The position numbers and the translations under genes were made by a program. A model generated the notes under the pieces. That model made no database searches, was not told where the DNA came from, and saw only the letters and a list, made by a program, of their open reading frames with translations. 64,000 bases of DNA from Actinomycetes bacterium (GTDB lineage Bacteria; Actinomycetota; Coriobacteriia; Anaerosomatales; Anaerosomataceae), in the NCBI GenBank assembly GCA_021372825.1, contig JAJFTR010000001.1, positions 1 through 64,000 on the forward strand. Direction: 5' to 3'. This document shows, one piece after another, positions 1,460 to 33,916 of the stretch (its first letter is position 1; the number at the start of each line of letters is the position of its first letter).

Positions 1460-1527
1460 CGCCATCGACGGCGGTCGGCGCATGGCGAACCCTGTCGTGG
1501 CGGTTGTGTTCATGGCTCCGCAATGAC

Positions 1528-1575
1528 GCACCATTTTGGTGCTTCATGCGCCCCGAACCTGCGTCATCATGGTGC
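1528..1575 (+). promoter_or_regulatory. NtrC binding sites upstream of glnA
   Basis: A perfect palindrome GCACCATTTTGGTGC at 1528-1542 matches the NtrC site (GCACCA-N3-TGGTGC). A weaker copy, GCGTCATCATGGTGC, lies at 1561-1575. The two sites are 33 bp apart centre to centre, about three helical turns, which would suit cooperative binding of NtrC dimers. They lie roughly 65-110 bp upstream of the sigma-54 promoter, the usual enhancer position. Confidence 0.85.
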
Positions 1576-1638
1576 GCTCGCACGGACGCCCCTGCCACAC
1601 TGCCGTGCAACCGATTGATCGGCAACGCAACCCATGGC

Positions 1639-1654
1639 TGGCGCGCCCCTTGCT
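1639..1654 (+). promoter_or_regulatory. Sigma-54 promoter of glnA
   Basis: The sequence TGGCGCGCCCCTTGCT matches the -24/-12 consensus TGGCACG-N4-TTGCW with one mismatch and the correct GG-to-GC spacing. It lies 38 bp before the glnA start and downstream of two NtrC sites, so glnA is predicted to be activated by phosphorylated NtrC under nitrogen limitation. The regulator pair is encoded at 7476-9901. Confidence 0.87.
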
Positions 1655-1691
1655 ATGGAAGGCGCATCCATCCACCGCACCGAGGTAGCCC

Positions 1692-29543: not shown

Positions 29544-30554
29544 TCACACAGACGGGGCAAGGAACCGCGGGAGCGGAAGGTCCACCACGGTGACGATGCC
29601 TGGCTTCGCGTCTAGCACGAGCGGGATGTAGTTGCCGGTGCTCGCATACGTCCCCTTGCCTCCGGGGACCTCGGGATTCGTCGACATGCGGATTTCCGGG
29701 TCACCGACGATGCGAATGTAGTCTCCCGTCGACACGCCCTCCATCTCGGGATGGATCTGCTGGGGATGGATGAGCTCGACTCTGAGCTCATCTCCCACAT
29801 ACCCGCGGCCGATCTGCGTGCAACCCGCTACGTCACCCGGCCTGACGGTGACGTGCGGGGTCGAACGCTCCACGGTGGTGACGATCGGCTCGCGCGTCTC
29901 CTCGATATGGTCGATCTGCCACCCCAATGCACGGCCTATCAGGTGGATGGACTCAGGAAACCCGATGTGACCCACGATCGAGCCGTCCGCGACGCCCGCG
30001 TAGAACTCCTCCACGGTCGTACCCACGCCTTGCGTGCGCATCACGGTGGGGCCGAACGGCGAGAGATCGTTCACGCGCTTGGCCTCGATGCGGTCCACCT
30101 GCAGACACACCGAAGTCCACATGACGACAAGAGCATCGAGGATGAACCCCGGGTTTATGCCGGTCCCTAGGATGGAGACCCCGTGCTCCTTGGCAAGGGC
30201 ATCGAAACGGTCGGCCCACTCAGGATCGCTTGCCCATGGGAAGCTCAGCTTCTCGGCGATAGAGATCACGTTCGCACCAGCACGCACGCAGGGTTCGACC
30301 TGACTGGAGATCTCATGAAGGAAGCTCTGCGTGCAGACACAGACGACGTCCGGCCGCAACGCGAGCACGGAGTCGTAGTCCATCGTCATCTTCACATCGC
30401 ACGGCCTGCCGAGAAGCTCGCCGACGGTCTTGCCCTCCTTGGCCGGGTTGGTGACGATCGCTCCCACGAGTTGCAGATCGCGTTCGCGGTCAAGGATGAA
30501 GTTCAACAGACCCTGACCCATCATGCCCGTACCCCACACGGCGACTTTGATCAT
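29544..30554 (-). CDS. ord: 2,4-Diaminopentanoate dehydrogenase
   Basis: A 336-residue Ord. An N-terminal Rossmann domain (KVAVWGTGMMGQGLLN) binds NAD(P); the DapB-like arrangement continues with GTGINPGFILDALVV, and the end TGNYIPLVLDAKPGIVTVVD matches the family. It oxidatively deaminates 2,4-diaminopentanoate to 2-amino-4-ketopentanoate plus ammonia. It is the first gene of the five-gene ornithine operon; a palindrome at 30580-30595 lies in its promoter region. An ornithine racemase, needed to supply D-ornithine, is not in the window. Confidence 0.95.
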   Translation of the reverse strand: MIKVAVWGTGMMGQGLLNFILDRERDLQLVGAIVTNPAKEGKTVGELLGRPCDVKMTMDYDSVLALRPDVVCVCTQSFLHEISSQVEPCVRAGANVISIAEKLSFPWASDPEWADRFDALAKEHGVSILGTGINPGFILDALVVMWTSVCLQVDRIEAKRVNDLSPFGPTVMRTQGVGTTVEEFYAGVADGSIVGHIGFPESIHLIGRALGWQIDHIEETREPIVTTVERSTPHVTVRPGDVAGCTQIGRGYVGDELRVELIHPQQIHPEMEGVSTGDYIRIVGDPEIRMSTNPEVPGGKGTYASTGNYIPLVLDAKPGIVTVVDLPLPRFLAPSV

Positions 30555-30639: not shown

Positions 30640-32022
30640 CTACCTGCTTTGCAAGATGGCCCGTGCCGCGACGAGTCCGCTCGCGCTCGACTGCACGAGA
30701 CCGCGTGTGACGCCTGCGCCGTCACCGATCGCATACAAGCCCGCGACCCGGGTCTGGAGAGTGGCGTCAAGCTCCACGCGCGACGAGTAGAACTTGACCT
30801 CGACGCCGTAAAGGAGGGTGCCATCCGAGGCCACGCCAGGCACGAGGGTCTCCATCGCGTCCAAGAACTCCAGGATATCGGCCAGGTGACGGTAGGGCAG
30901 CACGAAGGACAGGTCTCCCGGCGTCGCGCTTGGCATGGTCGGCGCCACGACGGACTCTGAGATGCGCTTGGCGGTCGACCGTCTTCCCGCGCGCAAGTCG
31001 CCGAGGCGCTGCACGATGATGCCCTCGCCAAGAAGGTTCGCTAGACGCGCGATGGAGCGGCCATAGGTGATCGGCTCATGAAAAGGCTCGGTGAACGACT
31101 GGCTCACGAGCACCGCGAAGTTGGTGTTTGCGGTCCTTTCCTCCGCGAACGAGTGACCGTTCACGGTGACGATGTCTCCGTACGATTCAGTGGTGACCTC
31201 CCCGTACGGGTTCATACAGAACGTTCGCACCTGGTCGCCGAAGCGCCGCGAATAGGAGATGAGCTTGGCCTCATAAAGCTCGTCGGTAAGAGGCTCCATC
31301 ACCGGCGCAGGGACTTCTACCCGCACGCCGATATCGACAGCGTTGTTGACGAGGCTGATTCCGAGCATGCGCGCTTGCTCCGCGAGCCAGTCAGCACCGT
31401 CGCGGCCTGGCGCCGCGATGACCGTCGTAGCCGCGATGCGGGTCCCATCGCCGAGCTCGACACCGGTGACCCTGCCCTCTTCCGCCAAGATCTTCGTGAC
31501 CGCACAGCCCATCCGTATCACGACCCCTTGGGCGATGAGGTGGTCATGCATCGCCTGGAGCACCGCGGGCGACCTGTCAGTGCCTATGTGGCGGATGCGC
31601 ATCGGGACGAGGCGCATGCTCGCCAGGGTAGCCTGCCGGGTCAACCGCTCTACCGATGCGGGATCGGGTTCATGCACCTCGCTTGTCGCACCGAACTCCA
31701 GCCACAAGCGGTCGGCGTCACAGACCAGTTGCTCGAGGCTCTCGGTGCCGACATAGTCACCGAGCCACCCGCCCACCTCAGTCGAGAGCGTGAGCTTGCC
31801 ATCCGAGAATGCGCCCGCACCGCCCCAGCCGGTCATGATCGAGCAGGCCTCGCAGCCTATGCAGTGCGTCCGGCGGGCCGGGCATGCACGTTTCGAGATA
31901 GGCTTGCCGCGTTCCGCGATGAGGATACGGCCAAGGCGATGCGAGTGCGCGAGCTCGAGCGCGGCAAAGATCCCCGCGGGGCCCGCACCGATGATCACGA
32001 CGTCGAATCTGTCCTCGGCCAT
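30640..32022 (-). CDS. COG2509-type FAD-dependent dehydrogenase
   Basis: A 460-residue flavoprotein with an N-terminal FAD motif (DVVIIGAGPAGIFAALELA) and a closing FAD segment (GLYAIGDGAGVTRGLVQSSASG). A Cys-rich loop, RACPARRTHCIGCEACSIMTGWGGAGAF, follows the first Rossmann strand as in the uncharacterised FAD-dependent dehydrogenase family COG2509. The substrate is unknown. It lies just upstream of the ornithine operon in the same direction and is divergent from the selenoprotein glutaredoxin gene. Confidence 0.8.
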   Translation of the reverse strand: MAEDRFDVVIIGAGPAGIFAALELAHSHRLGRILIAERGKPISKRACPARRTHCIGCEACSIMTGWGGAGAFSDGKLTLSTEVGGWLGDYVGTESLEQLVCDADRLWLEFGATSEVHEPDPASVERLTRQATLASMRLVPMRIRHIGTDRSPAVLQAMHDHLIAQGVVIRMGCAVTKILAEEGRVTGVELGDGTRIAATTVIAAPGRDGADWLAEQARMLGISLVNNAVDIGVRVEVPAPVMEPLTDELYEAKLISYSRRFGDQVRTFCMNPYGEVTTESYGDIVTVNGHSFAEERTANTNFAVLVSQSFTEPFHEPITYGRSIARLANLLGEGIIVQRLGDLRAGRRSTAKRISESVVAPTMPSATPGDLSFVLPYRHLADILEFLDAMETLVPGVASDGTLLYGVEVKFYSSRVELDATLQTRVAGLYAIGDGAGVTRGLVQSSASGLVAARAILQSR

Positions 32023-32091
32023 GCTTCTCCTCTCTTGTGTACCGACACGTACTTACCACACGTTCCACATGGCGGTCACAAGCCGGTGCTA

Positions 32092-32130
32092 GAATACTCG
32101 TTCACTCGGGAACGAATACTCTGTCACTCG
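32092..32130. repeat. Direct repeats in front of the selenoprotein glutaredoxin
   Basis: GAATACTCGTTCACTCG (32092-32108) and GAATACTCTGTCACTCG (32114-32130) are 17-bp direct repeats with two adjacent mismatches. Their 22-bp period equals two helical turns. They lie 16-54 bp before the ATG of the glutaredoxin in the divergent promoter region, so they may be a tandem operator. Confidence 0.65.
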
Positions 32131-32145
32131 AATCGGAGGTGTCCC

Positions 32146-32388
32146 ATGTCCCAAGCCGAAGAAGTCACCATCTACACGACGCCGAGTTGACCCTACTGCA
32201 CGCAGGCGAAGAGGTACTTCGCTGAGAAGGGGATCGCGTACAAGGACGTCGACGTGTCGCGCGACCGGGCGGGACTGGAGAAGATGGTGGCGATCACAGG
32301 TCAGTATGGAGTGCCAGTCATCGTCATCGGCGGCAGAGCCATGGTCGGGTGGCATCCGGGGGAGTTCGAGAAGTTCCGTTCGGCGTAG
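32146..32388 (+). CDS. Selenocysteine-containing glutaredoxin (NrdH/Grx type)
   Basis: An 80-residue thioredoxin-fold protein read through an in-frame TGA at 32188-32190. The sequence around it is TIYTTPS-U-PYCTQAKRYF, so the TGA replaces the first, nucleophilic Cys of the glutaredoxin CPYC active site: Sec15 and Cys18. The rest is a complete glutaredoxin (GVPVIVIGGRAMVGW, GEFEKF) ending at TAG 32386-32388. A site GGAGGT lies 6 bp before the ATG. A SECIS-like hairpin follows the TGA. Sec-glutaredoxins are known from some anaerobes such as Alkaliphilus. The product should reduce disulfides faster than the Cys form. A broken gene is unlikely because both sides of the TGA are intact and conserved. 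Confidence 0.92.
32203..32224 (+). promoter_or_regulatory. SECIS-like hairpin for UGA recoding
   Basis: Starting 12 bases after the TGA, CAGGCGAAG pairs with CTTCGCTG (one bulged G) around the loop AGGTA. A stem of about 8 bp with a GGU-containing apical loop 22-26 bases from the UGA is the layout of bacterial SECIS elements read by SelB. Confidence 0.8.
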
Positions 32389-32444: not shown

Positions 32445-33803
32445 CTACGGCACGTTCTTGGCCAGTGGGACGAACTTGGTGTAGCGGTCGAGGAAGGCGA
32501 CGTGACAGCTGTCGACCGGTCCGTTGCGATGCTTCGCTACGATTATCTCGGCTTCCCCCTTGGGGGGCATGCTGGACGGCCGGTCATCCGCGTAATCGTC
32601 GGCGCTCCCCCCGCTTCCCAACGTGTCTCGGTGGATGAACATGACGACATCGGCGTCCTGCTCGATGGCGCCCGACTCCCGCAAATCCGAGAGCATCGGG
32701 CGCTTGGACGTGCGCTGCTCGACGGCGCGCGAGAGCTGCGAGAGGGCGAGTATCGGCACTTGTAGTTCCTTCGCAAGGACCTTCAGCCCTCGGGAGATGT
32801 CCGCGATCTCCACCTGCCGGTTCTCGGACCGGCGGTTTTGCGGTTGCATGAGCTGGAGATAGTCGATGACGATAAGCCCCTGCTTCTTGTCGCGGAACAA
32901 CCGGCGAGCCTTCGCTCGAATCTCGACGATCGAGATCGAAGGAGTATCGTCGACCCACAGCGGGGCGTCGTTGAGCCGTCCCATCGCCTGCATGATCTGG
33001 GGCCAGTCGCTCTCATTCAGATACCCCGTGCGCAGCCGCTGGGAGTCTATCCGCGCCTCCGCACACAGTATGCGCTGGACCAGTTGCTCGCTTGACATCT
33101 CCAGGCTGAAGATGGCGACGGGGAACTGCCTCTTGGCGGCCTCCACCGCGATATTGAGCGCGAATGCCGTCTTGCCCACCGATGGACGCGCCGCCAGGAT
33201 GATGAGGTCCCCCGGATGCAGCCCTGCGAGGATCGCGTCCAGATCGGGAAAGCCGGTGGGAACCCCGGTGATGTGCTCCTTGCGGTCGTAGAGTTGCTCG
33301 ATCTGCTCGAAGCCGGTGGTCAGAAGTTCGTTCAGGGTGCGGAAGTTGCTCGACACCCTCTTGTTCGTGACGTCGAAGACGGCCTTCTCGGCCTTCTCGA
33401 TCGCCGCGTCCAAGTCATCGACACTCTCGTACCCCAAGGAGACGATACTCGTCCCTGCGGTGATGAGTTGCCGCAGCACCGAGGTCCTCTTCACGATCTC
33501 CGCGTAATAGGACGCGTTCGCAGCGGTCGGCACCATGCTGGTGATGTCGAGCAGATACGGCTTACCACCAGCGTGGTCCAGCTCTCCCACCGCCTCGAGG
33601 CGGTCTGCCACTGTCACCTGATCGACTGGCTCTCCGCGAGCATAGAGGTCTCGGATAGCAGTGAAGATCTTGGCGTGCGCGGCGCGGTAGAAGTCCTCTG
33701 GACCCACCATGTCCAGACCGACCTCGACTGCTTCAGAAGACAGGAACATGGAGCCGAGCAATGACTGCTCGGCCTCCAGGTTATGTGGCTGGACCCTGTC
33801 CAT
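32445..33803 (-). CDS. dnaB: Replicative DNA helicase DnaB
   Basis: A 452-residue DnaB. The N-terminal domain (QPHNLEAEQSLLGSMFLS) is followed by a linker and a RecA-like motor with Walker A ARPSVGKTAFALN, Walker B LIVIDYLQLM and the motif DLRESGAIEQDADVVMF. It unwinds DNA at the replication fork as a hexamer. The start at 33803 (MDRVQPHNLEAE) is typical; upstream residues are unlike DnaB. No intein is present. It is the last gene of the rpsF-ssb-rpsR-DUF2232-rplI-dnaB operon. Confidence 0.97.
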   Translation of the reverse strand: MDRVQPHNLEAEQSLLGSMFLSSEAVEVGLDMVGPEDFYRAAHAKIFTAIRDLYARGEPVDQVTVADRLEAVGELDHAGGKPYLLDITSMVPTAANASYYAEIVKRTSVLRQLITAGTSIVSLGYESVDDLDAAIEKAEKAVFDVTNKRVSSNFRTLNELLTTGFEQIEQLYDRKEHITGVPTGFPDLDAILAGLHPGDLIILAARPSVGKTAFALNIAVEAAKRQFPVAIFSLEMSSEQLVQRILCAEARIDSQRLRTGYLNESDWPQIMQAMGRLNDAPLWVDDTPSISIVEIRAKARRLFRDKKQGLIVIDYLQLMQPQNRRSENRQVEIADISRGLKVLAKELQVPILALSQLSRAVEQRTSKRPMLSDLRESGAIEQDADVVMFIHRDTLGSGGSADDYADDRPSSMPPKGEAEIIVAKHRNGPVDSCHVAFLDRYTKFVPLAKNVP

Positions 33804-33916
33804 AGTGTGTGGTCCGCTTCCTCGTTTGCCTGCTTCAACTCTTGCTTCTACTACTTCTCGGGACGCCCGTCGGAGCATCGTCGAAGCGGGAGGACCCGCT
33901 ATAGCGGTGCAGAGGC

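Follow-up and report, generated by a model that had tools for sequence, protein, structure and literature searches.

A short reading frame in the window, as we call the whole 64,000-nucleotide stretch of DNA analysed here, is interrupted by a TGA at the point where a glutaredoxin would carry its nucleophilic cysteine. Is this codon a stop, or is it read as selenocysteine (Sec)? The frame runs from ATG to a TAG at 32386–32388 and contains this one in-frame TGA only, which corresponds to residue U15 (Table 1). When the TGA is read through, the Pfam Glutaredoxin model (PF00462) spans it, matching residues 7–64 with an E-value of 1.8e-18 (66.9 bits over 22.9), and the best-scoring relatives of solved structure are glutaredoxins, NrdH proteins and thioredoxin-like proteins. 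The original prediction had described an 80-residue glutaredoxin with TGA in place of the nucleophilic Cys, the family motifs kept after the TGA and a good ribosome-binding site ahead of the ATG. The read-through translation, the Pfam match, the conservation of the protein on both sides of the TGA in the alignment with orthologues, and the GGAGG with its 6-nt spacer all bear this description out.

A long forward-strand frame at 31078–32190 lies antisense to the gene of the FAD oxidoreductase, and we consider it an artefact. A consensus scan around the glutaredoxin gene found neither a sigma-70-type promoter nor an intrinsic terminator, and when the window was scanned coarsely for further frames with a single read-through TGA, four candidates came up, none of them convincing.

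Table 1. Features of the glutaredoxin locus (positions in the window) and of the selenocysteine machinery (positions in contig C3 of the same genome).
Feature	Position	Strand	Evidence
FAD-dependent oxidoreductase, divergent neighbour	30640..32022	-	Pyr_redox_2 64 bits, FAD-depend_C 39.6 bits
Ribosome-binding site GGAGG, 6-nt spacer to ATG	32135..32139	+	sequence read directly
Predicted Sec-glutaredoxin gene, 80 aa, active site U15-P-Y-C18	32146..32388	+	read-through translation, Pfam, 10 TGA orthologues
UGA codon, predicted to be read as Sec in place of the catalytic Cys	32188..32190	+	the aligned codon is TGA in all 11 Sec genes and TGC/TGT in the 14 Cys orthologues
SECIS core hairpin with 6-bp stem GCGAAG/CUUCGC and, at 32212-32216, the loop AGGUA	32206..32222	+	fold, 11/11 identical stems, frozen synonymous sites
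Replicative helicase DnaB (presumed), convergent neighbour	32445..33878	-	presumed from the translation
selD	contig C3 12594-13511		372 bits over 125
selA	contig C3 14115-15476		617 bits over 268
selB	contig C3 15510-17381		389 bits over 242
tRNA-Sec (selC)	contig C3 17476-17568		73 bits over 47; anticodon TCA by ARAGORN

The search for orthologues covered 68 further genomes from this order. TGA stands at exactly this codon in 11 genomes, namely this one and 10 of the 68 relatives, and 14 other genomes have TGC or TGT at the same position. Among the members aligned, the Sec proteins share 61–75% identity with the window protein and the Cys proteins of the order 41–57%. The resolving Cys of U-P-Y-C is kept in all 11 Sec genes. 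A true stop, with the remaining frame a remnant left by gene decay or a sequencing error, would have to recur at one codon in 11 orthologues from separate assemblies, each with an intact and conserved downstream frame. A check of homologues for TGA at unrelated positions found it at exactly the same codon instead. One apparently decayed copy does occur at this locus in a relative (L054), which speaks for decay. This copy (genome G036; 1501–1680, minus strand of the locus) sits in the same slot between FAD oxidoreductase and DnaB, has CGA at the Sec codon and Arg for Cys18, and its frame ends early; GCGAAG AGGUA CGUCGC can still be made out in it as a SECIS-like sequence.

Elsewhere in the phylum, 11 further glutaredoxin genes (L082–L092) carry TGA at the equivalent codon, a count that excludes three more stretches retrieved for an in-frame TGA, one whose C-terminal region differs (L095) and two that the motif search left unresolved (L093 and L094). 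These 11 genes belong to other families of the phylum; several have UAYC or UAFC rather than UPYC, and most show SECIS-like hairpins in a shifted register. A protein tree of about 80 columns requires four label changes between Sec and Cys (bootstrap range 3–5) and settles neither the direction nor the number of the exchanges.

Bacterial SECIS elements have been modelled with a loop of 3–9 nt, an upper stem of 4–16 bp, a distance of 16–37 nt from the UGA, a G within the first two bases of the loop, the next base often being G or U, and a minimum free energy of at most −7.5 kcal/mol (PMC13188914). The hairpin downstream of the TGA agrees with this model in its 5-nt loop AGGUA, its stem of 6–7 bp and its spacing of 21 nt from TGA to loop, and its energy lies narrowly below the limit (−8.9 kcal/mol for a 41-nt stretch, −7.6 for the hairpin alone). 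A SECIS-like hairpin with a GGU loop had been predicted to begin 12 bases after the TGA; the hairpin and its GGU are present, but the stem begins at 15 nt. The geometric part of the model holds for all 11 Sec genes of the order in a single register, with GCGAAG at nt 19–24 and CUUCGC at nt 30–35, counted from the U of UGA. The loop is AGGUA in nine of them and AGUUA in two, its G being conserved. Among the 14 Cys genes, nine lack such a hairpin, two form only a stem of 4 pairs with a 9-nt loop, and in three a hairpin lies elsewhere. Since the stem is invariant within the order, covariation is uninformative there, and a count of pairs at fixed register fails in the distant Sec genes because their stem register often shifts; a clean compensatory change was found only in one distant gene (L082).

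Against shuffled sequences, the hairpin does not fold with significantly lower energy (z from −1.27 to +0.31). The case that the hairpin exceeds chance is instead comparative, and it rests on the TGA at one codon in 11 genes together with the absence of synonymous diversity. At hairpin codons 6–10 (Ala GCG, Lys AAG, Arg AGG, Tyr TAC and Phe TTC), synonymous diversity among the 11 Sec genes of the order is zero, against an average of 0.44 over 39 further conserved codons (p 0.0001 by permutation). The same codons in the Cys orthologues have a diversity of 0.46 versus 0.43 elsewhere (p 0.57). The Sec sequences are related, so that their p value cannot be taken as an exact probability; however, the Cys control is equally affected and yet shows nothing. 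The freeze stops with the stem, as the third base of Ala codon 11, the first base beyond it, varies freely. The loop Arg codon is AGG in 9 of 9 Arg codons of the Sec genes, whereas AGG makes up 9% of the Arg codons of eleven genes nearby. Invariance in the Sec genes extends to positions 2 and 3 (Tyr TAC and Cys TGC) and to two Glu codons close to the C terminus; thus, one codon that does not vary is not diagnostic by itself, while a run of five is. From this pattern, the hairpin is evidently under selection as RNA. Synonymous sites frozen exactly across a hairpin are not what a dead remnant would show, and the stop-codon reading is, in our judgement, very improbable. Folding energy alone would have missed this SECIS, which synonymous-site constraint reveals.

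Could UGA have been reassigned to an ordinary amino acid throughout this genome? In favour of such a reading, selD too has an in-frame TGA, at codon 15 in the context T-K-S-G-U-A-A-K (L026 1489–1533). Against it, TGA serves as the ordinary stop of 4 of the 11 neighbouring genes, no internal TGA occurs in selA or selB, and the genome holds a complete Sec machinery, so that we give genome-wide reassignment next to no chance. The presence of selA, selB, selC and selD had been proposed as a check of the Sec reading, and all four were found, together on one contig (Table 1). Given the TGA in its gene, SelD is probably a selenoprotein as well, the second one in this genome. Of 69 genomes of the order that were searched, the present one among them, 54 have selA, as do 8 of the 10 relatives with a TGA glutaredoxin gene. 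The other two (G026 and G029), in which selA was not found, are assemblies about 86% complete, and G029 has selB.

With the codon, the hairpin and the machinery in place, the interpretation as a Sec-glutaredoxin is supported by the sequences, and we consider it very probable that the gene genuinely encodes such a protein. Translation would start at the ATG and pass through the UGA, where SelB bound to the downstream hairpin would deliver Sec-tRNA-Sec. The predicted product is a protein of thioredoxin fold in which Sec would act as the nucleophile of U-P-Y-C. Its selenolate would attack a disulfide or another oxidised target, and Cys18 would resolve the resulting selenenylsulfide.

The chromosomal setting relates the Sec and Cys genes of the order to each other. 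On one side, the FAD oxidoreductase adjoins the glutaredoxin gene at all 11 Sec loci and at 12 of the 14 Cys loci (L039–L045 and L047–L053). On the other, the neighbour whose translation we take to be the replicative helicase DnaB has a homologue at 10 of the 11 Sec loci, the eleventh lying at a contig end, and at 13 of the 14 Cys loci. Both neighbours were found at 10/11 Sec and 11/14 Cys loci, and the remaining three Cys loci have one of the two. As they occupy one chromosomal slot, the Sec and Cys genes are positional orthologues with different active sites rather than unrelated paralogues. The Cys proteins have Cys for Sec, mostly in a CxWC motif, and their genes lack a hairpin in the Sec register. 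An order-wide exchange of Sec and Cys at a fixed position is a little unusual. The locus is a clean natural setting in which to compare the Sec and the Cys form of one protein at one genomic position, useful for the question of why some lineages spend selenium on glutaredoxin. Gene callers to which every TGA is a stop would cut the gene in two or miss it, and would hide part of the redox system of the order.

The glutaredoxin of Clostridium sp. OhILAs is reportedly a documented Sec-glutaredoxin. The family appears in an earlier list of bacterial selenoprotein families, with three entries at the time, and the hosts named are Geobacter sulfurreducens, Alkaliphilus and Moorella (PMC1794560); later lists give it with the motif UxxC (PMC9312934, PMC13188914). 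The window protein belongs to this same UxxC family (PF00462), with Sec predicted at the nucleophilic Cys, and like the known hosts its bacterium has the Sec machinery. The reading as a selenoprotein therefore stands, while the novelty attached to it in the original prediction was overstated, the kind being already documented in other bacteria and only this instance being new. The gene differs from the known ones in coming from a different lineage.

Sec could also be inserted into a protein that works not as a dithiol oxidoreductase but as a ligand or transfer protein for a metal or metalloid. Such a metal-ligand role has been suggested for the UXX-star selenoproteins (PMC13188914), and the window protein scores 71.2 with the NCBIfam model of the Uxx_star family glutaredoxin-like (seleno)proteins (NF041212), over the curated cut-off of 66. 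Only two of the five Sec proteins scanned pass this cut-off, the second being L034 with 67.6, whereas L030 (59.6), L031 (63.3) and L038 (65.9) fall below it. Moreover, UXX-star family 1 is listed with UxxT (PMC13188914), in contrast to the Sec proteins of the order and their conserved resolving Cys. The best-scoring model for the window protein is TIGR02196 (GlrX_YruB), at 83.9 bits and under its cut-off of 88.55. We regard the metal-ligand role as unlikely; both the family and the U-P-Y-C motif point to a thiol-disulfide oxidoreductase whose nucleophile would be a selenolate.

What would reduce such an oxidoreductase? In this genome, which is rated 99.5% complete, no glutamate-cysteine ligase was matched by either GCS2 (PF04107) or Glu_cys_ligase (PF04262), and no MsrA gene was found, which sets it apart from the known Sec-glutaredoxins. 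MsrA is named as a partner of the clostridial Sec-glutaredoxin in the title of a study cited in PMC9312934. Both absences make glutathione-dependent chemistry and the known pairing with MsrA unlikely here, although the host may take up glutathione. Without glutamate-cysteine ligase, we infer that the reductant is more likely thioredoxin reductase or another flavoprotein than glutathione, and the divergent FAD oxidoreductase is a candidate by position only. A broader picture is tentative and rather unlikely: the Sec-glutaredoxins would form an order-wide lineage independent of glutathione, Sec and Cys would be swapped at one locus, and the FAD oxidoreductase would possibly serve as the dedicated reductase.

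Beside the FAD oxidoreductase, at 29544–30554, lies a gene for 2,4-diaminopentanoate dehydrogenase of ornithine degradation (NF040740, 464 bits over a cut-off of 400). The ornithine context claimed for this host is thus real, and this neighbour is in keeping with an amino-acid-fermenting anaerobe. The first part of the window differs in composition. Positions 1–21500 have a GC content of mostly 0.65–0.76, with third-codon GC of 0.92–0.97 for most genes, and from 21.6 kb on third-codon GC is 0.70–0.87. This deviating part could be an island or a sign of a chimeric contig. An integrase-core fragment lies at 8–181.
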